IMG/VR virus record: IMGVR_UViG_3300048837_002246 | Span: 1 to 33,118 of that record | Source of the DNA: a virus | Reading direction: 5' to 3' (one strand) | DNA length: 33,118 nt | Shown: positions 3,227 to 25,701 of the stretch, one piece after another | How the letters are laid out: every line of letters starts with the position of its first letter | Numbering within the stretch: position 1 is the stretch's first letter | The notes under the pieces: generated by a model | Told to the model about the DNA's origin: nothing | Seen by the model: the letters and a program-made list of their open reading frames with translations, nothing else | Database searches by the model: none | Position numbers and translations under genes: made by a program

Positions 3227-6200
3227 TGACTTCGTGGCAGAGTTGAAAAAGCGGATCAGGATCGAGGATGTAATCAGTGAGACCGTCGAGTTACAGAAAG
3301 GCGGACGGCGTGGATACATTCGCGGCGCAAAGCGCGGCGCTGGTGAGCACGGTTTGGTTGTTGATCTGGACGGTCAGCGCTTTGCATGGAATGGCAACCC
3401 TGAATATGGCGGCGGTCGCTATAACGATGTCATCTTTTGGGTGATGGTGCGTGATCGCGTTGACTTCAAGCGTGCTTTAGAAATCCTCGCTCGTAAGGCA
3501 GGCATGGAATTGCCAAAGTGGAGTGAAGAACAACAGGTCAAATATGCCGCCGTCCGCAAGCAGGAAGATGTGCTTGAGGTTGCCCAGCGTGTTTTTGCCG
3601 AATGGCTTTGGAAAGATGAGAAGGCATTGGCGTATGTGCGCGGACGCGGTTGGTCAGATGAAACAATAAAGGCGGCAGGGCTTGGTTTTACGGGCTGGGG
3701 AACACCTGCCGAGTATGAAGAGATGAAGAACGCTATTGCTACTACTGGGGATCTGCATTCGGCGGCGGCGGTTGCGATCCTTGGGCTGCGCGGCGGCGTG
3801 CAAGCCTGGTGCGAGAAGCGCAGCATCGAGCCGAGAGCAAATTGGATCGAGAAGGATTTCATCGCTTCGATGTTGGGTTGGAAAGATAAGTTCGGTCTTA
3901 TTTACCCCTGCATTTATTTTGGGCGCACGACATACCTTTATCGTCGCCATTTGATGTTGAATAGTGATGGGGTGTTGATCGGTTCGGATGAGCCGAAGAG
4001 TTACAACTTGCCCGAAGTTCTGGTTGGAAAGCGTCAATTGTATTTCAACCATGTTTATTCACCGCGCGCTGAGCGGGTTGTGTTCGTTGAAGGTCCTGGC
4101 GATGCTGTGACGCTTGGTCAATGGGGGGTGGATGCAGTGGCAATCGCTGGAACCGCCTGGGAAGACCATGCGGAAGATCTGCGCGGGTTGAAAGATATGA
4201 AGTACGGCAACGAGCCAGCGCATGAGGCACTCTATATCGCGCTCGATGCGGATAAAGCTGGTGAAGCTTCAGTGACTGGAAAGAATGGCGAGTTTCCCCT
4301 GGTGGAGATCGTTGGGGCGATGTGTCGTGTGATCCGTTGGGATGAAAAGGATGCCAACGACTGGTTGCAGGCGATGAACCGTGACGGGGTAAAGCATGAA
4401 GACCAAGTGAAAAAGGTCAATGAGGTGATCGGGGAAGCGAAACCGCTTGCCATCGAGGTTGCGAAGTGGGCTGGCTCACAGAAGGATGATCACAAGGCGA
4501 CCAAGGCGTTGAAGCGGGCATTCGAAGTGATTGCACAGATGGGTGAAGAAAACACCATCATGCGTTATGCCCCTGAATTTTTGAGCGCGTTCAAGCCATT
4601 GGGCGATGCTGTAAAGGGTGTGCGTGAGTTCTCGCGGCTGTTGAAGAAGGCTCAGGGTAAGGGGGATGAGGATGGTGAGAAAAAAGAAGATGTGATCCAT
4701 ACCTATGGTGGCAGGATTGGCGACTGGCTGCTTGAGTATTGCTATGACCCTGAAACGGGCAAGGCGCATTTTGCATATCGTGACCCAAGTGGAAAGGTGG
4801 ATGAAGCGCCGGATCTGTTGATTGAAGGAAAACGTTACAAGCCTGAATTGCCTACTGACCGCATGATCTTGAAAGGCGCGATCAACTTCCCGTCTGGATT
4901 GGCTCGAAAGTCTGATGGCTCAATTGACCGACGCTCTACCAGCCAGTTGACAAACGATATCGCGTTCATCTTGCGCAAGAATTACTACTTCAGGGACCCG
5001 AAGTGGGCAACGTTATCGGCGTATTGGATTTTGGGCACCTGGCTGTACGACAATTTCAAGTCGTTGGTGTATTTGCGTTTTGTGGGGGATGCGGGTGCTG
5101 GTAAATCGGCATTGCTGAATCTTATTGGGTTGATGAGCTATCGATCTATCAAAATGTCTGGAGCGGATTCTGAGGCAACCTTCTTCCGCACAGTCGATGA
5201 TTTTCGCGGAACGATCTTGTTCGAGGAAGCCGATCTTCCAGATGGCAGTGGTGCAGATAATCCTATCGTCAAATTCGTGAACCTGGGGGCGATGCGTGGA
5301 AATTTTATCTACCGCATGGAAGAATACGTGAAGCATGATGGTTCCAAGGGCTGGAGACCGACGCCATTCGAGACGTATTGTCCCAAGGCATTTGCGATGC
5401 GCGGTGATTTTATGGATAACGCGGTTGCCAGTCGTTCCATATCGATCAAATTGACATCGGCTGAGACCACTGAGTTGCGCGATGCAAATGGCGGTGCGGG
5501 TATTCCGCTGGATCTGACCGATGCGACGCGGGCAGTGCTGCGCAACGTGCGAAACCTGTGCCTGACATGGCGATTGTTCGAATATAGCCTAACCGAACGC
5601 CAATTGAGTTGGGATCTGGTGGATGTTGAGATCCCAGCACGCTTCAACCAGGTGACGATCCCCATGAAATCGTTGGCAACAAATTTGGATGGCACGCGTG
5701 ATGAGGTGTTCCTGAATCAGGTGACTTTATTATTGCGCGAACATTATCAAGAGATCGTGGGGGATAACTCGACTACTTGGGAAGCACGCGTAGCAGAGGC
5801 ATGTTGGAAGATGTACATCTACCCGGACCTGCGCAATCGGCTGGAAGTGCGCCCGGATGGAACCATCCTGATGAAGATCGGGGATGTGACCGCGCTGGCA
5901 AACAATATTGCAGATGAAATGAATGAGGAAGGGGCTGACCTGCGGATCAAACGCGATGATGGCGGCGAAGATGGGGATAAGAAAAAATACAAGAAGAACT
6001 ATGAATTGGGCGCTCAAAAGGTCGGGAAGATCATCCGGGATGTGTTCCAGCTTCATACCCCACCGCGCAAGGGCAAGGGTGTGTTCTTTGAGTTCGAAGA
6101 AATGAAGATGATCGCCATTGGCAAGAAATATGCGGCGCTGCCACCGGAAGACAAGATTGAGGCGGCTCGCCAGGCGTTTGCTCTGCTGCGGGCGAAAGGC

Positions 6201-7913: not shown

Positions 7914-8912
7914 ATGGCAACAAAACTTGGAGTAGATTTTGGTCAGAGTTCTGTAAAGATCGTTGGTGCGGCTGGGAATGTGCAGTTCCTTTCGCAGGTT
8001 GCGTTGATCGGCGATATGAGCGTGGATGTGCCTGCTATGGGTCGCCGTGCGAAACGCCCAATGGTGGTCGAAAATGGGGTGGGTCCATATTTTGTGGGAC
8101 CGAAGGCTCACCAATGGGGTACGCCCATCGAGAATATCAATTATGAACGTTTAGCGGACGCGACCTCGGGAATGAAGGCGATCTTCCACGGCGCGTTGAC
8201 CGAATATCAAAATAAATTTGGGCGCTTTGAAGAACCGCTTGAGGTTGTAGTGGGTCTGCCGATGCAGATGATGACTGGGGAAAATAAGGATAAATACGAG
8301 CGGCAGGTGAAGGCGTGGGTTGGCGGCGAACATCGCTGGAATGCAAATGGTGTGCAGCACGAATCCATAATTACCAAAGTAGGTCTTGTGCCGCAGGCGA
8401 TGGGTGCAGTGGTGGATTATGCGTTTGACCATGATGGGAATGCTGTAAGCGCCGAGAATAATAAGGCGTTGACGCAAGAATGTGCGACGATCTGGATCGG
8501 GTCTTCCACTGTTGAATTGGCTGTTACGAAACGATCTGAGGACACCAAACGTTTCAATGGATCATCGCCAGTGGGTGTGAAGTGGTTGCACAACCAAGTG
8601 GACCCGACTGGGGCGTGGAAATTTGGCGAGTTCGATGAAATGCTGAGGGTGAACGATCTGCCAGACGGGATGGATATCGCCAAGTTCATGGATGCCTGGT
8701 ATGCGGTCATCAATGGTTTTATTTCCAGCCGCTGGATGCAGGATGGTGCAGATGCCACGAAACGTTTTTATCGCATCTTTGTGGGCGGCGGTGGAAGTTT
8801 GCTGTTGCGCGAGCAGATGCAGGCAAGGTTCGGCTCGAAGGTGATTTTCCCGAAGGACCCGATCATGTCTATTGCGAATGGCTTGTATAAGGCTGCTCTG
8901 CGAGGTAAGTAA
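7914..8912 (+). CDS. parM: actin-like ATPase, ParM-type plasmid segregation protein
   Basis: The 332-residue length fits ParM-type actins. The N-terminus has the phosphate-1 loop (GVDFGQSSVKIVG, residues 6-18). VVVGLPMQMM around residue 107 matches the block before the second phosphate region. VGGGGSLL near residue 291 is the adenosine motif. The C-terminal DPIMSIANGLYKAA resembles the ParM family ending, where the name-and-place motif reads D-P-x-x-A-x-G. Family members form dynamic filaments that push DNA copies apart, together with a small DNA-binding ParR and a centromere. A 3-bp TAATG overlap links it to the small gene downstream. AAAGGAG stands in front of the ATG. Symbol given by family resemblance. 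Confidence 0.75.
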   Translation: MATKLGVDFGQSSVKIVGAAGNVQFLSQVALIGDMSVDVPAMGRRAKRPMVVENGVGPYFVGPKAHQWGTPIENINYERLADATSGMKAIFHGALTEYQNKFGRFEEPLEVVVGLPMQMMTGENKDKYERQVKAWVGGEHRWNANGVQHESIITKVGLVPQAMGAVVDYAFDHDGNAVSAENNKALTQECATIWIGSSTVELAVTKRSEDTKRFNGSSPVGVKWLHNQVDPTGAWKFGEFDEMLRVNDLPDGMDIAKFMDAWYAVINGFISSRWMQDGADATKRFYRIFVGGGGSLLLREQMQARFGSKVIFPKDPIMSIANGLYKAALRGK

Positions 8913-11580: not shown

Positions 11581-12516
11581 ATGGCTAAAGATTGGTGGAC
11601 TTATAGTTGGAACCTTGCGGTGGGATGCTCGAAGGTGAGCACGGAATGTCAGCACTGCTGGGCTGAGGTGATGGCGAAACGCCTCAAAGCGATGGGGCGG
11701 GCAGAGTACCAGGATGTGGTGAATGACCACGGTCATTGGACGAACCGTGTGACGCTGGTTAATGATCGGATCGGGGAGCCATTGCGGTTGAAGAAGCCGC
11801 GCGTGATCGCAGTCAATTTGATGGGAGATCTGTTTCACCCTGCAGTGCCGCTTGATTTTCAGGAGAGCGTGTTCGATGTGATGCGCCAGGCGAATTGGCA
11901 TGTGTTCCTGATTTTGACGAAGAGACCTGAGCAAATGCTGGCGGTTGTGAATCGGCTTGGATTGAAGGCAGAGAATTACGTCAATGTGTGGCTGGGGACA
12001 AGCGCGGGCAACCAGGCTGGAGCGAATGAGAGGCGCGATAGCATGTGGGCACTTGCGCAAATGGGTTTTAATACGTGGGTCAGTTCAGAGCCGCGCATTG
12101 GCGAGATCGATTGGACTGGTTGGGAGTTTTTGAAATGGATGGCGACTGGCGGTGAAAGTGGAAATGATTCGAGACCGATGGACCCGAATTGGGCAAGGTC
12201 GGATTTGGATTGGTGTCGTGCGCATGATGTGAAATTCATGTTCAAACAATGGGGCGAATATGTGCCGTTGGACCATTTGAAAGTGAGTGAACGAACGACG
12301 TTCAAACATCGCCCTGTTGAGGTTGGTGGGACGGTGATGGTGCGGGTTGGTAAGAGCGCTGCCGGGCATGTGTTGGATGGGAATGTGTATCGATGGTATC
12401 CGAGCCCTGCGGATATGCGGATCTGGCACAAGACGAAATATTGCCCTCAATGTAGCAGTGTTTGGGACGGTTTTTTTTGCGCACAGTGTGGATATTGCAA
12501 ACCGCCGCGCCAATAA
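11581..12516 (+). CDS. Phage Gp37/Gp68 family protein (DUF5131)
   Basis: The 311-residue protein opens with WWTYSWNLAVGCSKVSTECQHCWAEVMAKRL. The three cysteines C16, C23 and C26 sit where this family has its conserved G-C-x6-C-x2-C-(Y/W)-A motif, reminiscent of an iron-sulfur site. Further family blocks are VNLMGDLFH, VFLILTKRPEQM, NVWLGTSAGNQ, FVSSEPRIGEID (read here as WVSSEPRIGEID), and TGGESGNDSRPM. These are shared across phages and prophages; the biochemical activity is not established. A zinc-ribbon-like tail (C-x2-C...C-x2-C over the last 25 residues) is an addition I do not associate with the core family. AGGAG lies 7-8 bases before the ATG. Confidence 0.85.
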   Translation: MAKDWWTYSWNLAVGCSKVSTECQHCWAEVMAKRLKAMGRAEYQDVVNDHGHWTNRVTLVNDRIGEPLRLKKPRVIAVNLMGDLFHPAVPLDFQESVFDVMRQANWHVFLILTKRPEQMLAVVNRLGLKAENYVNVWLGTSAGNQAGANERRDSMWALAQMGFNTWVSSEPRIGEIDWTGWEFLKWMATGGESGNDSRPMDPNWARSDLDWCRAHDVKFMFKQWGEYVPLDHLKVSERTTFKHRPVEVGGTVMVRVGKSAAGHVLDGNVYRWYPSPADMRIWHKTKYCPQCSSVWDGFFCAQCGYCKPPRQ

Positions 12517-13120: not shown

Positions 13121-13750
13121 ATGCCCGTATCAAAACCTATTTACCAATTGCCATTGATCTTGGATCTGCCTGAGGCGGATGATCTGAATATCTCTGCGGA
13201 GGATGCGCGGATCAAAGCAGAGGCGGCACGTAAAACATTAGAGGGGATGTATGGAAAGATCGGTTCCCCCAAGTGGCTTGAAGACTATAACGAATTGGTG
13301 CGAGGCGGCTGGCATTGGCGGGTGGCAGCGTATATTGCCTGGGCATCGAGCCCGCGTTTTGGAAGAGAACCAAAGACACAGGATGAGTTGGCTCGCTTTC
13401 ACCTGGGATTGAATAGTGATCGGGTGATCGCCACCTGGCGCAGGAAGAACCCTGCCATCGATGAGACGGTGCGTCTGCTGCAGGCGGCTCCGCTTTTCAA
13501 GCATCGAGCGGAGATCTACACGGCGCTTGTGGCTGTAGCAGTGAAGCCTGAATATAAAAGCCATAATGACCGCAAGTTGGCTTTAGAGTTGTTGGGCGAT
13601 CATGTACCCACTTCAAAGCTGCAGGCGGAATTGAAACGCAGGGGAATCAGCATGGATGATATTAGCGAGCTGAGCGATGCTGAGTTGATGGAGATCTCAC
13701 GCGCTGCAGAAGATCGTTTGCAGCCGATGAATGGTGAGGGTGAAGAATAA
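13121..13750 (+). CDS. TerS-like protein 1 (terminase small-subunit paralog)
   Basis: The 209-residue protein is a clear paralog of the one at 16141-16860. Shared blocks include LVRGGWHWRVAAYIAW, TQDELARFHLGL-x-SDRVIATWR, the HNDRKLALELLGDHVPTSK region (about residues 146-164) and DISELSDAELMEI near the C-terminus. The repeated HTH-like layout, the NADRKLLLE/HNDRKLALE ending and the link to a large terminase downstream for its sister point to the phBC6A51-type terminase small subunit. This copy lies apart from TerL, directly before the ParB-like/methyltransferase gene, with which it overlaps by one base. GAGGATGA precedes the ATG. It may act in packaging recognition or as a DNA-binding partner of the methylase. 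Confidence 0.65.
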   Translation: MPVSKPIYQLPLILDLPEADDLNISAEDARIKAEAARKTLEGMYGKIGSPKWLEDYNELVRGGWHWRVAAYIAWASSPRFGREPKTQDELARFHLGLNSDRVIATWRRKNPAIDETVRLLQAAPLFKHRAEIYTALVAVAVKPEYKSHNDRKLALELLGDHVPTSKLQAELKRRGISMDDISELSDAELMEISRAAEDRLQPMNGEGEE

Positions 13751-15069
13751 TGGAAATCAAACATGACCAGCATAATGCCAATAAGGGAACGAAGCGAGGC
13801 AAGGAGTTATTGAATCAGTCGCTGCGCGAGTTGGGAGGCGGGCGGTCTATTCTGCTTGATAAGGATGGGAACATCATCGCTGGAAATAAAACGTATGAAG
13901 AAGCACAGAAGCTTGGGTTGAAGGTGCGGGTGATCGAAGCTGGCAAGGATGAGCTTGTGGCGGTACAACGGGGAGATCTGGATCTGAATGATGGCACAGG
14001 GGATGCGCGACGCCTGGCGTATTTGGACAACCGTGTTTCGGAGTTGGATCTAGCTTGGGATGAGGACCAGCTCGCGTTTGATATTGCGGCGGGGCTGGAT
14101 CTGTATCCGCTTGGGTTCAATGAGAACGAGTTGTTTCTTATCATTGGGGAGCCAGAAGAAGAGGTGGATGCGAAACCGGAGTTTGATAAAGCGGATGAAT
14201 TGCGAAACAAGTGGAATGTGCAAACCGGACAGATGTGGAGGCTTGGCAACCATTATCTAATTTGCGGAGATTGCACAGCGGCATACGTTGTGGAGCGGGT
14301 CCTGCAAGGCAGTAAGTTTGATTTGCTTTGCACGGATCCGCCATATGGGGTCAATGTTCATGGTGGTGAAGGCGGCGAAATGGTGATCGCTAATGATTCG
14401 CCTGAGGATGTGCCGGATCTGTTATTGAGTGCGTTTCGCCTGGCGGTGAAATGGGCGGAGAAGAAGTCAGCTTTCTATATTGCGGGTCCGCATGGACCGC
14501 AGTCGCATGAGTTCTCGAAGGCAATCCTCGCCGCAGGGATGGATTGGAAACAAACGTTGGTATGGTCCAAGAATAATATTGTGCTGGGGAGGAGTGATTA
14601 TCAACAAAAGCATGAAATATTTTTCTATGGAAATTTCGGGCATGGTCGAGTTTGGAATGGTGGACGAAAGCAAAAGAGCGTGACTGAAGAGCAGCAGAAA
14701 CTGTTGAGTTTTATCGATGAGAATACGGTGCAGGTGATGCTTGGCACTGAGATGTACGCCATTCAGGGTGATAACCTTGAGGTTTCGCAAATCGAGCCGG
14801 ATGTGATGCGAGTGGAGAAGCCGCAGAAAAGCGAGTTGCACCCGACGATCAAGCCGATGAAGTTGATCCGCAGAATGATACGCAATAGCACGGAACGAGG
14901 TGCAGTTGTTTATGATCCATTCAGTGGTTCAGGGACGACGATCTTGGCATGTGAGAATGATAGTCGCAGGTGTTGTGCTGTTGAGCTATTGCCAAAATAT
15001 GCGGCGGTGAATTTGCAACGGTGGTTTGATGCTACCGGTGTGTTGCCTGTTTTGCTTGACAATTCATAA
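13750..15069 (+). CDS. ParB-like N-domain fused to DNA methyltransferase
   Basis: The first about 95 residues resemble the ParB-like/sulfiredoxin-type domain often found in front of phage methylases (SILLDKDGNIIAGNKTYEEAQKLG, then DLDLNDGTGDARRLAYLDNRVSEL). The methyltransferase part begins with QMWRLGNHYLICGDCT, has the catalytic DPPY at residues 196-199, and the S-adenosylmethionine loop DPFSGSGTT at 389-397. Catalytic motif before SAM motif marks the beta class. DPPY points to N6-adenine (N4-cytosine is less likely). No restriction enzyme is near, so it is an orphan methylase, perhaps for protection from host restriction or for marking DNA for packaging. The 3' end carries the TTGACA of the next promoter. 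Confidence 0.85.
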   Translation: MEIKHDQHNANKGTKRGKELLNQSLRELGGGRSILLDKDGNIIAGNKTYEEAQKLGLKVRVIEAGKDELVAVQRGDLDLNDGTGDARRLAYLDNRVSELDLAWDEDQLAFDIAAGLDLYPLGFNENELFLIIGEPEEEVDAKPEFDKADELRNKWNVQTGQMWRLGNHYLICGDCTAAYVVERVLQGSKFDLLCTDPPYGVNVHGGEGGEMVIANDSPEDVPDLLLSAFRLAVKWAEKKSAFYIAGPHGPQSHEFSKAILAAGMDWKQTLVWSKNNIVLGRSDYQQKHEIFFYGNFGHGRVWNGGRKQKSVTEEQQKLLSFIDENTVQVMLGTEMYAIQGDNLEVSQIEPDVMRVEKPQKSELHPTIKPMKLIRRMIRNSTERGAVVYDPFSGSGTTILACENDSRRCCAVELLPKYAAVNLQRWFDATGVLPVLLDNS

Positions 15070-15083
15070 AAAGAATCTATAAT
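15056..15083 (+). promoter_or_regulatory. near-perfect sigma70 promoter
   Basis: TTGACA (15056-15061), a 16-bp spacer and TATAAT (15078-15083) match both consensus hexamers exactly. The stop codon of the methyltransferase lies in the spacer. The predicted start is A15090, the first base of the following stem-loop. Confidence 0.8.
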
Positions 15084-15089
15084 GCAGAC

Positions 15090-15296
15090 ATTGACCGTCA
15101 GGGTGCCCCCCTCACCCTGGCGGTCAATGCTTTAAGGAAGATTAGAATCTCTGTTCTGACTCTTGTTAAATTTTTTAAATTGTGTTAAAAATGGAGAGTA
15201 CAACTCAATACATTTTGCACCGCCCGCCCAATGTGGCAGGCATGTTTCGGAGATAAGCGCCCGATGACCATCAACGGTCATCGGGCGCTTTTTTAT
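15090..15296 (+). ncRNA. candidate ~205-nt leader RNA, lambda 6S-like position
   Basis: The stretch starts at the predicted start of the 15056 promoter and ends at the T-run of a strong terminator. It begins with a 16-bp stem (15090-15105 with 15113-15128, one G-U pair, loop of CCCCCCT). It continues through an AT-rich middle and ends with the 15-bp terminator stem. Only tiny frames without ribosome sites are open (17 codons from 15082; 21 codons from 15191). In lambda, promoter pR' makes the 194-nt 6S RNA ending at tR', and the Q protein lets polymerase continue into the late genes. The geometry here is the same, with the late genes straight after the terminator. No Q-like protein is recognised in the window. 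Confidence 0.6.
15255..15296 (+). terminator. strong Rho-independent terminator before the late genes
   Basis: A perfect 15-bp stem (AAGCGCCCGATGACC at 15255-15269 with 15276-15290) has a 6-nt loop and is followed by TTTTTTATTTAT. It would end the transcript started at 15090 unless polymerase is modified. Confidence 0.9.
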
Positions 15297-16140: not shown

Positions 16141-16860
16141 ATGACCAACGGACGATTGGACCAGCCAGTTTATCAACTCGAAATGCAGTTAAAGGACGTG
16201 GTGGAAGCAATTCAATATCAGGAATTGACTTCCCGTGAAACCGCGCTTGCGGCTCTTTCCGCGTTGAGGGCTAAAGAACCCATCGTCGAAACCTATCGTG
16301 AGAAGGATGACAAAAGTAATAAGGTCATTGAGAAGACTCTTGTCGTGGGCGAGCGTGAGATCGTGCCACGCTGGATGGATTTATTCAAAAAACTTGTAGA
16401 AGGAGGTTGGCGCTGGGAAGTTGCCGTTTATATCGCCTGGCGATCCATGCCAAAGAAATACCGCTACCCTGAAACGCAGGAAGAACTTGCCACCCAATGC
16501 TTAGGATTGAAATCTGACCGCGCGATTGCTACATGGCGGAAGAGCAATCCATTTATCGATGAATACATTACCGTTTTGCAGGGTGAGCTGGTGTTTGATC
16601 GCATCCCGGATGTATTGGATGCAATGACTGAGGTCGCCTCTACTCCAGATTACAAAGGTAACGCGGATCGAAAACTTTTGCTGGAGATGACCGGACGATA
16701 TACGCCTTCATCGAAGATTACAGCAGAGATGGCAAAGAGGCTGGTCAACAGTAAGCCCGAGGATTTGGAAGAATTGAGCGATGACCAACTGCGGCAAATC
16801 GAAGAGACTGCCAAATACGCACGTATCCATCGACCCCAAAATGAGGAGACGGCAGAATGA
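16141..16860 (+). CDS. terminase small subunit (TerS-like protein 2)
   Basis: The 239-residue protein is followed directly by the large terminase with a 4-base overlap, the classic TerS-TerL order. The conserved part (about residues 77-220) has the same blocks as the paralog at 13121: LVEGGWRWEVAVYIAW, TQEELATQCLGLKSDRAIATWRKSNP, NADRKLLLEMTGRYTPSSK and DLEELSDDQLRQIEE. The N-terminal 75 residues are not shared. TerS proteins bind the packaging site and start cutting by TerL. The paralogs diverge mostly in their ends, which suggests different partners or DNA targets. Confidence 0.7.
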   Translation: MTNGRLDQPVYQLEMQLKDVVEAIQYQELTSRETALAALSALRAKEPIVETYREKDDKSNKVIEKTLVVGEREIVPRWMDLFKKLVEGGWRWEVAVYIAWRSMPKKYRYPETQEELATQCLGLKSDRAIATWRKSNPFIDEYITVLQGELVFDRIPDVLDAMTEVASTPDYKGNADRKLLLEMTGRYTPSSKITAEMAKRLVNSKPEDLEELSDDQLRQIEETAKYARIHRPQNEETAE

Positions 16861-18449
16861 ATTCAGTTTCTGTCAGGGCGCATGATCCACAAGCGGCTCG
16901 TGGAGAACGCGCAAGACGTGAATTGGCTCGCCGCCACTTGATCGATTACAGCAAGTATGTGGCTCCGTGGTATCAGCCTGCACGGCATCATATATATCTT
17001 GCTGAAAAGCTCGAGCAGGTGAAGCTTTATATCGAGACAAAAGGCACGACCGGCATCGGACGATTGTTGATCTGCGAACCTGCGCAATATGGAAAGACCG
17101 AACAGGCAAGCCGTTTATTCCCTTCGTGGCTATTGGGCGATTTGCCAGATACGCGCATCATTCTTTGTTCTTATGGCGCTGACTTGGCTACAGAAAACAG
17201 CCGGCATACCCGCAATTATGTTGGGAGTGAAGCGTATGCCAGAATCTTTGGCAATCGTTCAGCTGTAGATGAACCCGTCGAACTCAGCCCCGAGAGCAGA
17301 TCGATTGTGTCCTGGAATTTGAAGGACCATCGAGGATCTGTTTTCGCGGCTGGTGTTGGCGGTGGTATTACCGGGCGACCTGCAAACCTGATCGTGATCG
17401 ACGACCCGTTCAAATCACGCGAAGACGCGGAGAGCGAAACCTACCGCAAGAAAGTGATGAGCTGGTATCGCTCAGTCATTTATCCGCGTATTGCAAATAC
17501 GCCAGGCGCGGCGATCATCATCATGCACACGCGTTGGGATCAGGAAGACCTCGCGGGGCAACTGCTGACGCAAATGGTAAGCGACCCGGAAGCCGATCAG
17601 TGGGAGGTTGTTTTTTTGCCCGCTTTGGCATTGCAGGATGAACAATATCCAAAGACCGAAGCGGAATACCGCGAGAATTTATTGCGCGGCATTTACATCC
17701 CGATGACGGGTGACCCGCTAGGGCGCAAGCCAGGTGAAGCACTATGGCGGGAACGCTCGGATGAGAAGAAGCTCGCATCGACTCGCGCCAACATGATGGA
17801 TTACGACTTCGAGGCGATCTTCCAGCAGTTACCGCGCATGGCTGAGGGTGAGTTCTTCGATGAGAAGGATTTTGAAATCATCGAGAAGGGTCCCGAAAAT
17901 TTGCAGTGGTATCGCTACTGTGATCTCGCGTTAGGTGAGACCAAAACCAGCGATAGCAATTCCACTTTAGCCGTTGCACTCGATGAAAAAACAGGCGATT
18001 TGCATTTGAGAGACCGCATCAAGGTGCGCAGCTTGGATGAATTCCTTGCGCAGGTTGGCACGGCGATGCTTTCCGATTCTGAGAACGGAACAGAATGGGG
18101 CTTTGAGGATGTCGCTTTTCAAAAGCTGGTCATCAAGGAATTTTTGAAACAAAAGAAATTTACAAAGGTGCGGATGCGGTCCGTGAAACCGAACGGTGAC
18201 AAGGTCGAGCGGGCACGTCCGTGGCAATTGAGAGGCAAACAAGGTCACGTGAAGTTATGGCGCGGAGCGTGGAATCGGGATTTCTTGCGTGAGGCAACAT
18301 CATTTCCAAAGGGACGCCATGACGATGATGTGGATACCGTCAGCGGCGGTGTGCAGATGATCGCTGAGGATGGCGGCGACCAGAAGACGGCGAGTAGTGA
18401 AGCGGTGGTGGTTTCCATCGAATCAATGTTTCAAGGAGTAATGCAATGA
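16857..18449 (+). CDS. terL: terminase large subunit
   Basis: The 530-residue length is normal for TerL. The ATPase half has a Walker A variant, PAQYGKTE (K80, T81), the SYGADLATENSRHTRN block (about 105-120), and a Walker B, NLIVIDDPFK (D182, D183), followed by IIMHTRWDQEDLAG, the motif III region of this family. The nuclease half begins near residue 354 with CDLALGE, then YRYCD supplies a metal-binding Asp, and a late HDDDVD cluster (about residue 487) supplies more. TerL cuts concatemer DNA and drives it into the procapsid through the portal. Its stop overlaps the next ATG (ATGA). Confidence 0.9.
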   Translation: MNSVSVRAHDPQAARGERARRELARRHLIDYSKYVAPWYQPARHHIYLAEKLEQVKLYIETKGTTGIGRLLICEPAQYGKTEQASRLFPSWLLGDLPDTRIILCSYGADLATENSRHTRNYVGSEAYARIFGNRSAVDEPVELSPESRSIVSWNLKDHRGSVFAAGVGGGITGRPANLIVIDDPFKSREDAESETYRKKVMSWYRSVIYPRIANTPGAAIIIMHTRWDQEDLAGQLLTQMVSDPEADQWEVVFLPALALQDEQYPKTEAEYRENLLRGIYIPMTGDPLGRKPGEALWRERSDEKKLASTRANMMDYDFEAIFQQLPRMAEGEFFDEKDFEIIEKGPENLQWYRYCDLALGETKTSDSNSTLAVALDEKTGDLHLRDRIKVRSLDEFLAQVGTAMLSDSENGTEWGFEDVAFQKLVIKEFLKQKKFTKVRMRSVKPNGDKVERARPWQLRGKQGHVKLWRGAWNRDFLREATSFPKGRHDDDVDTVSGGVQMIAEDGGDQKTASSEAVVVSIESMFQGVMQ

Positions 18450-21061
18450 CAAAAAAAATTAGCAAGGGCAAAGCCATCGAGGAGCTGGTGAAGGGCAGCC
18501 TGGACTACACCATGCGCATGATCCGCACTGCATTTGAGACGCAATTCCCCTGGAGGGAAGGCGGACCCAACTATTACGTGGATGAGGTCTTTTCGGATTA
18601 TGTGATCGTGAAGACCTACAGCGGCGAATTGAAGACCGATGAATATTTCATGGTGACATATTCGCGCAGCGGAGAAACCATCACGTTTGCGGGGCTCGAT
18701 GCATGGGAGATCGTGGAGTTGACCTACCAGCCACAGACAACGATCACCGAGAGCAAGAAGAAAAGCGGGCGGCGCATCGAGGAAGCGATTGCGCCAGGGA
18801 AAGTTGCTCTTCTTGAAGCGAAAGATGAAACGAAGAAGACCCGTCGCATTCGGATCAATGATCTGATGGTGGCGAATGAAGTGAATGGGAATAAACGTCT
18901 CTACAGCCGCGAGGTGATCGAGGCTATGGTTGCCGATTGGCAGCCGTATCTCCGCGAATCACGCGGGCAGGGACGATTGATGATCCTGACTGGCGAAGTG
19001 GAGCATCCATCCGACAAAAAGAACAAACGCCCCGAATATCTTGAAACGGTCGTGCGATGGGATGAACTTGATTGGAATGGCAAGAGCCTATCCATTGAGG
19101 GTGATCTCATACTGACAAGCAAAGGTCGTGACGTGGAAATCTTGATGGAGGCTGGTGTCAACCCTGGCGGCAGTATTCGGGGTATCGGTGAAAGCAAGAT
19201 CGAAAAGGTTGGCGGTGAAAAAGTCGAGCGTGTGGAATGGGTCTCGATGAATGCGGCTGACCTGGTTGGAGACCCGTCGTTCGTAAATGCGGCGGCGCTA
19301 CAAGAATCAATCAATCAACAAGGAGATGAAGAAATGTTAGAAGAACTCAAAAAATTACTTGCGGAACATCCTGAATTATTCAGCAAGGGCATGACCGAAG
19401 CACAACTCGAAGCGTTGGGTGAAAAGCAGTTGAAGAAACTGATGGAATCCCTGCGTGCTGAATTGGGCATTGGTCCCGAAGGTAACATCGTTGAATCGGT
19501 AAAGGCGAATGCTGAAAAGGCTCGTAAGTTCGACGAGAGCCAGAAGCGCACCGAAATTGAAGCGGCGATCACCGAAGCAACCAAGGACCTGCCGTTTGGC
19601 AAGGAACTCAACGAAGCCTTCACCGAATCCATCAAGGATGGCAATTTCGAAAGCGCAGAGGCAGTCAAGACTTTTGCTGAAAGCCAGCGCAAAGTGTTTG
19701 GCAAACTGGCTGCGGGTAAGAAGTTGAAAGGGATGGGCTACCAGGCTGGCGCTGGAGTACAGGTGATCGGCACTGTACTTGAGACCGAGACCGACACCCC
19801 TGAATTTGCGCGTGGCGCGTTCGAGATCGCTGAAAGCATGCGACGCGTGGATAGCAAACCTACCCGCGACTGGCATAAGGTCAATACGATCAACGAAGAA
19901 TTTGCCAAGCGCGTCTTGGGTCGCTTTGATACCTTTTTCAAGCGCGAGTTGATGCTCGAATCGAAAATGATCGAGGAAGCTGGCACGGTGAGCGATCTGA
20001 ACCTACCGTATTCGACCGCCCGCGCTGTGACCGAAGAAGCGTTCCCGGATCTGATCGCCAGCGGCATCTTTGATTTTGACGTGATCGATACGGTCATTAT
20101 CCGCTTGTACTTTGAAGCGTTCAGCGGTGAGACCAACTATGCCCAGACTGTGACCGATGAAGTAGTGGTTGCCGATCATGGCGCATGGGTTTCCCTGGCG
20201 AACCAACGCCTAACTCCCGGCACTGTAGTGGTGACAAACTCTGCAGGCACAACCACTTATGTGGAAGACACCGACTACCTGGTGGATTATGCCAACGGCA
20301 GAATCTATGCCCTTGCCAGCGGCGCGATTACGGATGGTCAAAGCCTGAAGGCTGACTACGGTTGGACGGCGATCCGCAAGGGTGAGATGCAGGGCATCGA
20401 ACGTGGAAAGTTGACGCTCTCCTATATCACTGTGGAAGCGAAAGCAGACCGCTTGGCTGACCAGATCAGCAAGGAATCCATCTTGTTTGCTCAGGCGCAG
20501 ATGGGTTGGGATGTACGTGCGAAGACATTGGCAAACCTTGCCAAGCAGTTGAAGCGCAAGATCGACCAGGGCGCGATGTATATGGCGCTCTCGGCTGCCA
20601 AGACTGTTGCCTCGAATGTGGTGGGCACCTGGACCGCCGCAAGCGATACCGAATTGGCGTTCGTCAAGCTCATGGGCAAGGCTCGCGTGAAGGTTGCCAA
20701 GCGCTATTACGAACCGACCTTCGGTTTGCTCAGCACTACCAATGCTGATTTGATCGCCAATTGGGATGGCTTCACTGCAGCTGGCAAACGCCCAGATGCG
20801 GACCTGAAAGCCAATGGGTACATTGGTCGCTTGAAGGGTTTGGCGATCTTCGATGGCACCGAGTTCAGCGATGGATACGGTCTAGTTGGCAACCGCGAAT
20901 TGGTGCAGCACCGCGTTTTCAAGCCGCTTTCGTTCCAAGGTCCATTGCCCTCTTACGATAGCAATGGCAAGGTGATTGCCGCTGAGCAGTATTACGCGGA
21001 AGAGTTCAACCTGACCGAAACGCCTGTGCCTGGCAAGGGCGCGTTGGTCAAGATCGCGTAA
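18446..21061 (+). CDS. fused prohead protease-scaffold-major capsid protein
   Basis: The single 871-residue frame joins parts that are usually two or three genes. Residues about 130-290 resemble T4 gp21-type prohead protease: VNGNKRLYSREVIEAM, GEVEHPSDK (candidate catalytic His), then SIEGDLILTSKGRDVEILMEAGVNPGGSIRGIG (candidate Ser) and MNAADLVGDPSF. Residues 297-440 are charged and helical, scaffold-like (LEELKKLLAEHPELF...). From about residue 455 on the sequence looks like a HK97-type major capsid protein with an inserted domain near 575-660. An internal ATG at 19334 (residue 297) has AAGGAG 8 bases upstream, so a separate scaffold-capsid chain may also be made. TerL overlaps the ATG by 4 bases. 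Confidence 0.75.
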   Translation: MTKKISKGKAIEELVKGSLDYTMRMIRTAFETQFPWREGGPNYYVDEVFSDYVIVKTYSGELKTDEYFMVTYSRSGETITFAGLDAWEIVELTYQPQTTITESKKKSGRRIEEAIAPGKVALLEAKDETKKTRRIRINDLMVANEVNGNKRLYSREVIEAMVADWQPYLRESRGQGRLMILTGEVEHPSDKKNKRPEYLETVVRWDELDWNGKSLSIEGDLILTSKGRDVEILMEAGVNPGGSIRGIGESKIEKVGGEKVERVEWVSMNAADLVGDPSFVNAAALQESINQQGDEEMLEELKKLLAEHPELFSKGMTEAQLEALGEKQLKKLMESLRAELGIGPEGNIVESVKANAEKARKFDESQKRTEIEAAITEATKDLPFGKELNEAFTESIKDGNFESAEAVKTFAESQRKVFGKLAAGKKLKGMGYQAGAGVQVIGTVLETETDTPEFARGAFEIAESMRRVDSKPTRDWHKVNTINEEFAKRVLGRFDTFFKRELMLESKMIEEAGTVSDLNLPYSTARAVTEEAFPDLIASGIFDFDVIDTVIIRLYFEAFSGETNYAQTVTDEVVVADHGAWVSLANQRLTPGTVVVTNSAGTTTYVEDTDYLVDYANGRIYALASGAITDGQSLKADYGWTAIRKGEMQGIERGKLTLSYITVEAKADRLADQISKESILFAQAQMGWDVRAKTLANLAKQLKRKIDQGAMYMALSAAKTVASNVVGTWTAASDTELAFVKLMGKARVKVAKRYYEPTFGLLSTTNADLIANWDGFTAAGKRPDADLKANGYIGRLKGLAIFDGTEFSDGYGLVGNRELVQHRVFKPLSFQGPLPSYDSNGKVIAAEQYYAEEFNLTETPVPGKGALVKIA
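19320..19336 (+). promoter_or_regulatory. internal ribosome site and in-frame start within the capsid ORF
   Basis: AAGGAG at 19320-19325 is followed after 8 bases by ATG 19334, in frame with the long ORF. Translation from here gives 575 residues, the scaffold plus capsid part without the protease. This site decides whether the fusion is the sole product. Confidence 0.6.
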
Positions 21062-23290: not shown

Positions 23291-24574
23291 ATGGCATCTT
23301 TGCGAGATCGAATAAATGCATTTATCAACCCCCCTATTACCTCAGGCGAGACGACCGCTGAGGTCAAGGTTTCTGCATCTGGAGATGCAAGTATTGCTGT
23401 TTATGAAAAGATGAAGGCGGATCGTGACCGCGTTGCTATTATCAAGACCTGCCGCATCATGTACGAAACCGACCCCCGAGTAAAGAAGGCGCTGCGGACC
23501 TATGCTACGGATGTGGTGCGTTCCGGTTATTTTGTGAAGACCGAAGATAAGCAGGCATTGGAAATCGCACAAGCATTGCAGAAGCGGCTGGGTTTGAATA
23601 AGAAACTGCAGGATGTAACACGCCTGACTGGGCGCGATGGTGATTCGTTCTACGAGATCGTAGTAGACGACAACTTGGATATTGTCAAACTTTCTCGCAA
23701 GCCTACCTTGCAGATGCATCGTGCGAGCAATTCATACGACGAATTCGATAACCCACAAAGGGCGTTTTGGTTGGGCAGCGATCACCAGATGACTCTTGAA
23801 CCGCCCAAGGATGCTGTGTGGTTTGCGAGCTGGCAGATCATCCACTTGCGCTTTGACCATGACGATGAGAAGCGTTACGGCACACCTATGTGGGCATCTG
23901 CGACCGGCGCATTCAAACGAGTAAGTGAAGGGGAGATCGATATCTCTGTGCGGCGTAAGGTCCGCGCTGGGATGATCCTGCACCACGTGGTGGAGGGTTC
24001 GCCATCGGATATTGATGCATACAAAGAAAAGAATGCGGCGGCAGAGAATAACCCTTTTGCGGCAGTGCGAAATTATTACACCAATAAGCCTGGCTCAATT
24101 AGTGCAATTCAGGGTGATGCGCACTTGAACGAGATCGCCGATATTGTGCATCACATCGAAACCATGTTCACAGCGAGCGACATTCCGATGGAGCTGGTGG
24201 CTTACGGCGGGGATCTGAACCGTGATGTACTCGGAGAGAAGAAGGAAGAATACGACGAAACGCTCGATGACGGGCGTGAATGGCTCAGCGAAGAATTCTT
24301 GAAACCCCTACATGAATTGCAGTGGATGTTGAAGGGCATTTATCCACAGGATCTTGATTACAAATTTATATGGCGCAAGGCGAAGAGCCTGACTCCTGTG
24401 ATGCTTAGGGACCTGGCAGATGCACTGATGCGCTTGCGGGTGTTGGGCGTCAAAGAGGAATTGATTCAATCGCTTCTGGCTCAGTTTGTGCCTGGCATTG
24501 ATCTGGATATGCTACTGGGCGATGGTCTGGATAGCACGGCATTTGCAAATAACCTGAAGGGTTTGAGCATCTGA
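23291..24574 (+). CDS. portal protein
   Basis: The 427-residue protein has portal-like features: an N-terminal KADRDRVAIIKTCRIMYETDPRVKKALRTYATDVVRSGYFV block, the VTRLTGRDGDSFYEIVVD strand pair, KDAVWFASWQIIHLRF with YGTPMWASATGAFKR (about residues 195-220), and MFTASDIPMELVAYGGDLNRDVLG (about 290-315). The order is that of T4 gp20-like and related portals, in line with the T4 gp21-like protease. Twelve copies form the ring through which DNA passes. It lies after the connector genes rather than between TerL and protease. It overlaps the following gene by one base. Confidence 0.75.
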   Translation: MASLRDRINAFINPPITSGETTAEVKVSASGDASIAVYEKMKADRDRVAIIKTCRIMYETDPRVKKALRTYATDVVRSGYFVKTEDKQALEIAQALQKRLGLNKKLQDVTRLTGRDGDSFYEIVVDDNLDIVKLSRKPTLQMHRASNSYDEFDNPQRAFWLGSDHQMTLEPPKDAVWFASWQIIHLRFDHDDEKRYGTPMWASATGAFKRVSEGEIDISVRRKVRAGMILHHVVEGSPSDIDAYKEKNAAAENNPFAAVRNYYTNKPGSISAIQGDAHLNEIADIVHHIETMFTASDIPMELVAYGGDLNRDVLGEKKEEYDETLDDGREWLSEEFLKPLHELQWMLKGIYPQDLDYKFIWRKAKSLTPVMLRDLADALMRLRVLGVKEELIQSLLAQFVPGIDLDMLLGDGLDSTAFANNLKGLSI

Positions 24575-25701
24575 TGAACAAAAACAAATTGCTTACACGA
24601 TTGGATGAAGTAGCTTTGGACATGCTGGATAAAGCAGCATTCAAGGCGCTCTTGCGCATGCAGGTGTACTTCACAGGGCGGACGCATGAGTTGTTGATCC
24701 AGTTTGGAAAGCAGGCGGCGGCTGTGTTGTTGAAGCATGGCGATGATGAAGGCAAGCTGGACGGTTTGCGTGGTTTCCGCGCACAGGGTGATCTGCTCAA
24801 ACTGTGGAGCGATACGTTTACAACGTGGCAGGCTGAATTCTTATCGGCGCGGCGGGAGGCGGTGAGTCTTCCGTATGGTGTGCTGGCGGTGAGGCATGAA
24901 CGGTTCGTTCGACCATTGACGATGGACAATAAACAATTGACCGAAGCCATTGAGGATGGGGTATTCAAACCGCAGATCGATGTGTTGTTGAAGGTCGCTG
25001 AGGAATATTTGTACGGTGATGGCATCACATTGGACGGACGCATTTGGCGCATCGATGCGGCGGGGCGTGAGGCGATCAATAACGTCATCATGCAGGGCAT
25101 TACGGATGGTGATTCAGCGTGGAATATCGCCAAGAAATTGCAAGGTCAATTGGGTGCGGGTGAGAATTGCCCGCGCTGGACTTCAACGCGTTTGTATGGA
25201 CGCACTGCCAGCGATAAGGCGGCGGGTGATCCGACTGGACTTTTATCGGGCAATGACTGTGATGGGCGCGGCGTGGCATATAAAGCCTTGCGCCTGGCGC
25301 GGACTGAAATTCAGAAGATCCATGCGCTGGCGACGGACAAGCTCATGGCGCAGCAGCCCTGGGTGGAGCAGGAACAATGCCATCTCTCTGCAGCGCATCC
25401 CGAACCAGACGAATGCGATGACGTGATCGCAGGCGGCGAAGGCGGCAAGGGCATCTACCCAGTCGGGACGATTGAATACCCGCTTCATCCGAATTGTTTT
25501 TGTTACAAGACTGCCGTGCTGATGAATCAAAAAGAATTCACCAGCCAGTTGAATGGCTGGTTGAAAGGGGAACAGGATTGGGCGGAGATGGACGCATACG
25601 CCAATACCATCGGTGTGGATGTTTCGTCATCGCTCATGCCCGATGCAGTCAGTCTGGCAGTCTGGTTATTCGGTAATGAATTGGAGGGCGTGCTGAAATG
25701 A
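24574..25701 (+). CDS. phage head morphogenesis protein, SPP1 gp7 / Mu F type
   Basis: The 375-residue protein directly follows the portal, where minor head proteins of the Mu F/SPP1 gp7 type normally stand. Its N-terminal half is helical (residues about 1-160). The typical C-terminal part follows: ALRLARTEIQKIHALATD, then CHLSAAHPEPDECDD (about residue 269) and LHPNCFCYKTAVL (about 304-316). The conserved H-P-x-C-x-C element is the family hallmark. These proteins sit in small number inside the head and help procapsid assembly or DNA ejection. The last 60 residues form a helical end without clear match. ATGA overlap to the next gene. Confidence 0.75.
   Translation: MNKNKLLTRLDEVALDMLDKAAFKALLRMQVYFTGRTHELLIQFGKQAAAVLLKHGDDEGKLDGLRGFRAQGDLLKLWSDTFTTWQAEFLSARREAVSLPYGVLAVRHERFVRPLTMDNKQLTEAIEDGVFKPQIDVLLKVAEEYLYGDGITLDGRIWRIDAAGREAINNVIMQGITDGDSAWNIAKKLQGQLGAGENCPRWTSTRLYGRTASDKAAGDPTGLLSGNDCDGRGVAYKALRLARTEIQKIHALATDKLMAQQPWVEQEQCHLSAAHPEPDECDDVIAGGEGGKGIYPVGTIEYPLHPNCFCYKTAVLMNQKEFTSQLNGWLKGEQDWAEMDAYANTIGVDVSSSLMPDAVSLAVWLFGNELEGVLK

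Follow-up and report, generated by a model that had tools for sequence, protein, structure and literature searches.

We analysed a stretch of 33,118 bases from an uncultured virus record (IMG/VR IMGVR_UViG_3300048837_002246; the whole stretch is called the window below), in which one open reading frame (ORF) of the plus strand, at 18446-21061, joins a T4-type protease, a scaffold-like region and a major capsid protein. We propose, with a probability of roughly 0.78, that this frame is a nested gene with two products: a full-length form that carries the protease, and a scaffold-capsid form started at an internal ribosome site, probably the bulk product, with which the first would co-assemble before cleavage. 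The sequences of the window and its relatives show the fusion, the folds of the protease and capsid parts, the catalytic residues, conserved candidate cleavage sites and the conservation of the internal ribosome site.

Protease, scaffold and capsid parts of a single frame

The ORF comprises 871 codons, starts with ATG, has no internal stop and encodes a protein of a predicted 96 kDa. The original prediction, made from the DNA alone, had placed T4 gp21-like protease blocks, a charged helical scaffold part and a capsid part in this one stop-free frame, and the reading of the ORF, the profile searches and the structural models agree with each of these assignments. The protease domain spans residues 111-287 (18776-19306). 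Pfam Peptidase_S77 (PF03420) matches residues 136-264 with an E-value of 5.8e-9 and 36.2 bits, against a curated cut-off of 27, and PHROG 207 (head maturation protease) matches the protease part with an E-value of 4.5e-20. The PF03420 match recurs at E ≤ 0.01 in 53/53 family members, and a profile built from 53 relatives matches T4 gp21 (5jbl) with an E-value of 3.1e-10. An AlphaFold model of residues 1-300 (mean predicted local distance difference test, pLDDT, of 80) gave 5jbl as the only significant Foldseek match (E 3.3e-9, probability 1.00). A plain phmmer search of the PDB with the window protein returned weak matches only. S77 was the sole protease type that Pfam found in the family members, none of which qualified as HK97-type (S78). 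All 63 family representatives (< 80% identical) share the catalytic residues H187, S243 and D272. H187 and S243 align to positions of T4 gp21 at which the crystallised chain has alanine, presumably H85 and S140 of T4 in an inactivated mutant.

The scaffold-like region, residues 297-463 (19334-19834), resembles a delta domain; it is predicted to be mostly helical, about one third of its residues are charged, and (L/I/F)xE motifs are frequent in it. Modelled with AlphaFold (mean pLDDT 82), residues 297-871 adopt the HK97 fold; the top match is the T4 head (7vrt_he; Z 19.0 over 242 residues, root-mean-square deviation 2.9), and HK97 (2gp1) scores Z 16.6. The predicted mature major capsid protein, residues 464-871 (19835-21058; 45 kDa), thus has the HK97/T4 gp23-gp24 fold. 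The division into protease, scaffold and capsid stands as first described, with one correction: the capsid part also holds an immunoglobulin (Ig)-like insert, residues 563-647 (20132-20386). This insert matches PHROG 807, a family annotated from tail proteins, which suggests that the Ig-like domain has been exchanged between head and tail proteins.

The N-terminal domain, residues 1-110 (18446-18775), is without a Pfam match and varies within the family. Three relatives (L049, L050 and L080) do without the first ~100 residues, and four others (L061:5029-5434, L009:4561-4900, L010:2138-2468 and L083) carry an extra N-terminal domain of 100-200 residues before the usual start of the family, in which no Pfam or PHROG match was found. 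The ORF start of the window, AAGGAG-N7-ATG at 18433-18448, overlaps the terminase gene (16857-18449), whose stop codon shares an ATGA with it, so that synthesis of the full-length protein may be coupled to that gene.

Relatives were searched with full-length, capsid-only and protease-only queries, and the best 80 of 127, 226 and 201 candidates, respectively, were considered; the protease-only candidates were read in frame only where they overlapped the other two sets. The 127 candidates of the full-length profile search are viral contigs, and the same search matched six contigs from Anaerolineales/Chloroflexota genomes, which suggests this group as hosts. In all but two of the roughly 90 related contigs the fusion frame is open across the whole protein. 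The exceptions are L011, broken at 2380-2420 and 3260 with an intact internal start, and L072, broken at 3990; these breaks probably reflect indels from sequencing, the contigs being of low coverage. The additional contigs found with the capsid-only query are likewise fused, except for records that end at a contig edge. No split protease and capsid genes were seen among the best 80 per query, although more distant split forms may exist. As judged from these contigs, the fusion family is widespread among uncultured phages linked to Anaerolineales.

A published phage has the same protein: gp30 of Virus Rctr41k (KX853513, APU89242) is 52.5% identical over its full length. That virus comes from a methane-oxidising enrichment culture, and the paper describing it mentions just a prohead protease (PMC5099504). 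Its gene shares the terminase-adjacent order of the window and has an AAGGAG-N8-ATG at codon 293; it is annotated only as a "putative phage capsid protein and protease", with the internal start unremarked. Nothing speaks for an assembly or sequencing artefact that merged two genes, and this uninterrupted frame recurs in numerous independent contigs from different samples and in the published phage record, which leaves such an artefact a negligible probability. For the same reason a stop or frameshift between the protease and scaffold parts of the window is very unlikely.

The internal ribosome site at the protease/scaffold junction

The internal site was located exactly by the original prediction. 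It consists of a Shine-Dalgarno (SD) sequence, AAGGAG, at 19320-19325, a spacer of 8 nucleotides at 19326-19333 and, in frame at the junction between the protease and scaffold parts, the ATG of codon 297 at 19334-19336. The product that would start here (19334-21061) has a predicted mass of 63 kDa. Conservation of the site was assessed in the 63 representatives by inspecting the DNA at the alignment column of codon 297, with an SD defined as a match of at least 5 bases at a spacer of 4-11 bases. All 63 have a start codon at the junction (60 ATG and 3 GTG); in L054, L086 and L094 it lies about 20 alignment columns off, which is taken as alignment noise within the gappy linker. The methionine column has an entropy of 0.44 bits inside this otherwise variable linker. 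An SD of 5 or more nucleotides precedes the junction start in 57/63 representatives, compared with 42 of the 1110 other in-frame ATGs of the same genes. It occurs in each of the three codon phases (40, 20 and 3 cases), so that no single amino-acid motif explains it. The messenger RNA is least folded around the internal start, with a mean z of +1.55 at the start codon that declines to about 0 beyond 45 nucleotides downstream.

Were only the full-length polyprotein made, protease and capsid would stand at 1:1, and the internal SD and ATG would be a relic of separate genes or a by-product of the acidic linker. The frame is open throughout, as this explanation demands, and the linker contributes as well: when the eight upstream codons were redrawn by each gene's own codon usage, the chance of an SD was about one third (0.34 per sequence), above that of average coding sequence. 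This recoding nevertheless predicts an SD in 21.7 of the 63 representatives, far below the 57 observed (Poisson-binomial tail about 2e-25, with shared ancestry beyond the identity cut ignored), and coding constraint was rejected as a full explanation. Among the members that are less than 50% identical, 11/12 have an SD against 1.7 expected (about 2e-10, with ancestry treated in the same way). A relic would have decayed, whereas this start is conserved, and the GTG replacements at the start codon, the three SD phases and the unfolded messenger RNA also speak against synthesis of the full-length protein alone, which we consider unlikely.

The same features, namely the GTG variants, an SD in three phases beyond what the protein demands and the unfolded messenger RNA, together with an internal SD that is at least as strong as that of the best start near the ORF beginning in 43/58 cases, strongly support the use of the internal start for translation initiation. 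Two points weigh against the nested gene with a dominant internal product. One is the tendency of the acidic linker towards SD-like DNA described above; the other is that the two starts of the window are similar in SD strength (-8.0 and -10.1 kcal/mol), so that sequence alone cannot prove that the internal product dominates.

The internal product could instead come mainly from a separate transcript, driven by a promoter inside the protease region in the manner of herpesvirus UL26.5 within UL26, and not from internal initiation on the long messenger RNA. We know of nothing positive in favour of this, and a simple scan of the plus strand at 17901-19334 found no sigma-70-like site, which, from so simple a scan, is weak evidence against it; phage promoters in Anaerolineales are uncharacterised. 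We regard a separate transcript as quite improbable.

Candidate cleavage sites and a proposed route of head assembly

The T4 protease prefers (L/I)xE sites. S77 proteases cleave after Glu, and gp245 of SPN3US cleaves at A-x-E and was measured to trim its own C-terminus 25 residues past the catalytic Asp (PMC5694885). In the family studied here, E287 is invariant and is mostly followed by Ser; the catalytic D272 precedes it by 15 residues, and the internal start comes 10 residues after it. By analogy with gp245, LQE287/S (19298-19309), cut after E287, is a candidate self-cleavage site at the C-terminus of the protease.

The mature capsid protein was originally estimated to start near residue 440-460; residue 464, after a candidate maturation site IAE463/S (19826-19837) cut after E463, is now better supported. 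E463 is invariant in the 63 representatives; P3 is L, I or F in every one of them (63/63), and P1' is S or A in 60/63. The alternatives are E446, where Val occupies P3 in 62/63 and the motif fits less well, and E505, where P3 is variable and Glu is once replaced by Asp. E463 is preferred for its better motif fit and its invariance; the structure alignment of the capsid begins near residue 510 and does not separate a start at 464 from one at 506. Cuts at E287 and E463 would free the protease and give the 45-kDa mature capsid protein. The density of (L/I/F)xE motifs per 100 residues is 5.4 in the scaffold region, 4.1 in the protease part and 1.4 in the capsid part. The motif is frequent in the protease part too and hence non-specific, a limit on the case for the proposed processing, and its density was rejected as proof of scaffold cleavage; the richness of the scaffold region is only suggestive of cuts there.

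These features are combined in the following proposed route. Initiation at 18446 would yield the 96-kDa protease-scaffold-capsid polyprotein as a minority form, and initiation at 19334 the 63-kDa protease-free scaffold-capsid precursor, probably the bulk product. Both forms would co-assemble by their common scaffold-capsid part, and each full-length copy would thereby take its own protease along into the prohead. Once the prohead is assembled, cuts by the S77 protease behind the Glu of (L/I/F)xE sites would release the enzyme itself at E287, immediately before the internal start, fragment the scaffold and set free the mature capsid protein at E463. The fusion would guarantee encapsidation of the protease and internal initiation would keep it in the minority. 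We infer in this way that cells use the internal site and that the two forms co-assemble, and likewise the ratio of copies and the order in which the cuts are made. The T4 head holds about 55 copies of gp21 and about 580 of gp22 (PMC9958956), so that a minority protease is to be expected for a head of this kind, and the conserved internal starts of unrelated HK97-type fusions, described below, also favour a nested gene. Delivery of the protease to the shell by the fusion, and a copy ratio set by the internal start, had been part of the original prediction; the relatives strongly support the fusion and the use of the internal start, from which delivery and ratio can soundly be inferred.

Both starts might also be used while the fusion is cut before assembly, which would link the expression of protease and capsid without delivering the protease. 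The conserved candidate self-cleavage site at E287, exactly at the end of the protease, would suit such early cutting. The S77 protease of T4, by contrast, stays inactive until the prohead is complete (PMC9958956), and that the fusion has been kept over long times points to a structural role for it. We therefore find cutting before assembly doubtful and favour co-assembly of the two forms followed by cleavage.

The proposed gene shares features with several known systems. With T4 gp21-gp22-gp23 it has in common the fold of the S77 protease with its catalytic residues, candidate sites of the (L/I)xE type and the gp23/gp24 capsid fold, but T4 has three separate genes where the window has a single frame. 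In lambda (C/Nu3) and Mu (I/Z), the start of the scaffold is nested in frame within the protease gene. The original analogy to lambda C/Nu3 holds for the nested in-frame start, whose ribosome site appears from the comparison of relatives to be under selection. It does not hold for the product: in lambda and Mu this stops with the scaffold and the proteases are of other families, whereas the nested frame of the window runs on through the capsid fold to 21061. In herpesviruses (UL26/UL26.5) and in retroviral Gag-Pro, a minority protease fusion is co-assembled with a majority protease-free form; there a nested transcript, or else frameshifting or readthrough, sets the ratio, and in the window probably internal initiation does. 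Fusions of protease and capsid were already known, as were head genes nested in frame; what is new is the combination of a T4-type protease fusion with a nested scaffold-capsid product. In a literature search with little coverage of subscription journals, we came across no prior description of an internal start within protease-capsid fusions.

HK97-type fusions and other features of the window

In cultured actinophages the capsid protein is fused to an unrelated protease of the HK97 type, and these genes are labelled so (PMC10927632, PMC9671004). Such fusions are also found in phages of Bifidobacterium, Faecalibacterium and Lactococcus, for example orf10 of Lactococcus phage 1706. In 14 diverse HK97-type fusions, an internal start lies behind SD-like DNA at one position, marked by the motif EG..NM.xNVF. 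The start (ATG, GTG or TTG) is at the aligned column in 13/14, the other being that of JoyLin, a GTG two columns off; an SD of 5 or more bases precedes 12 of the 13 starts at the aligned column, and 18 of 176 other in-frame ATGs of these fusions. A small cluster-EE type has a start at the same junction with a weaker or stronger SD. Of the unrelated fusions of cultured phages with such a start (rows L095-L109, L096, L110 and L111), some have a second one further upstream, such as codon 246 of Djungelskog. Like the gene of the window, those of Djungelskog (OR521078), Anseraureola (ON108642) and Lactococcus phage 1706 are single ORFs with a conserved SD and start before the capsid part, but they belong to another protein family whose protease and capsid are not S77- and gp23-like, and a tblastn search with the window protein returned no match to these phages.

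We give even odds to the wider proposal that internal initiation in protease-capsid fusions is a general control of the number of proteases per capsid, independently retained in at least two unrelated protease families. If so, it would be a translational counterpart to the ratio control of retroviral Gag-Pro. A phage needs tens, not hundreds, of proteases per prohead, and a single gene appears to settle both delivery, by fusion to the shell protein, and dosage, by a second ribosome site. "Capsid-protease fusion" is now a standard label on hundreds of phage genes, and these would probably encode two proteins, which is relevant to virion proteomics, to structural work on capsids and to gene calling. 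The idea is directly testable, since HK97-type fusions occur in cultured phages.

Other genes of the window were noted in passing. Many tailed phages have the gene order terminase-portal-protease-capsid; in the window, the portal-like and head-morphogenesis genes come only after the capsid gene, at 23291-25701. Ahead of the head genes, a gene-poor stretch at 15056-15290 contains a promoter-like site, a perfect TTGACA-N16-TATAAT, and behind it a 15-bp hairpin and T tail that resemble a terminator; the stretch could be a small RNA or a boundary between early and late regions. An actin-like partition protein (ALP_N / PHROG 691) is encoded at 7914-8912; by its sequence, the virus may have a prophage state resembling a plasmid, or the protein may form a filament inside the cell. 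A DUF5131 protein (E 2.8e-65) is encoded at 11581-12516, and a single ORF at 13750-15069 joins a ParB-like domain to an N6_N4 DNA methylase.

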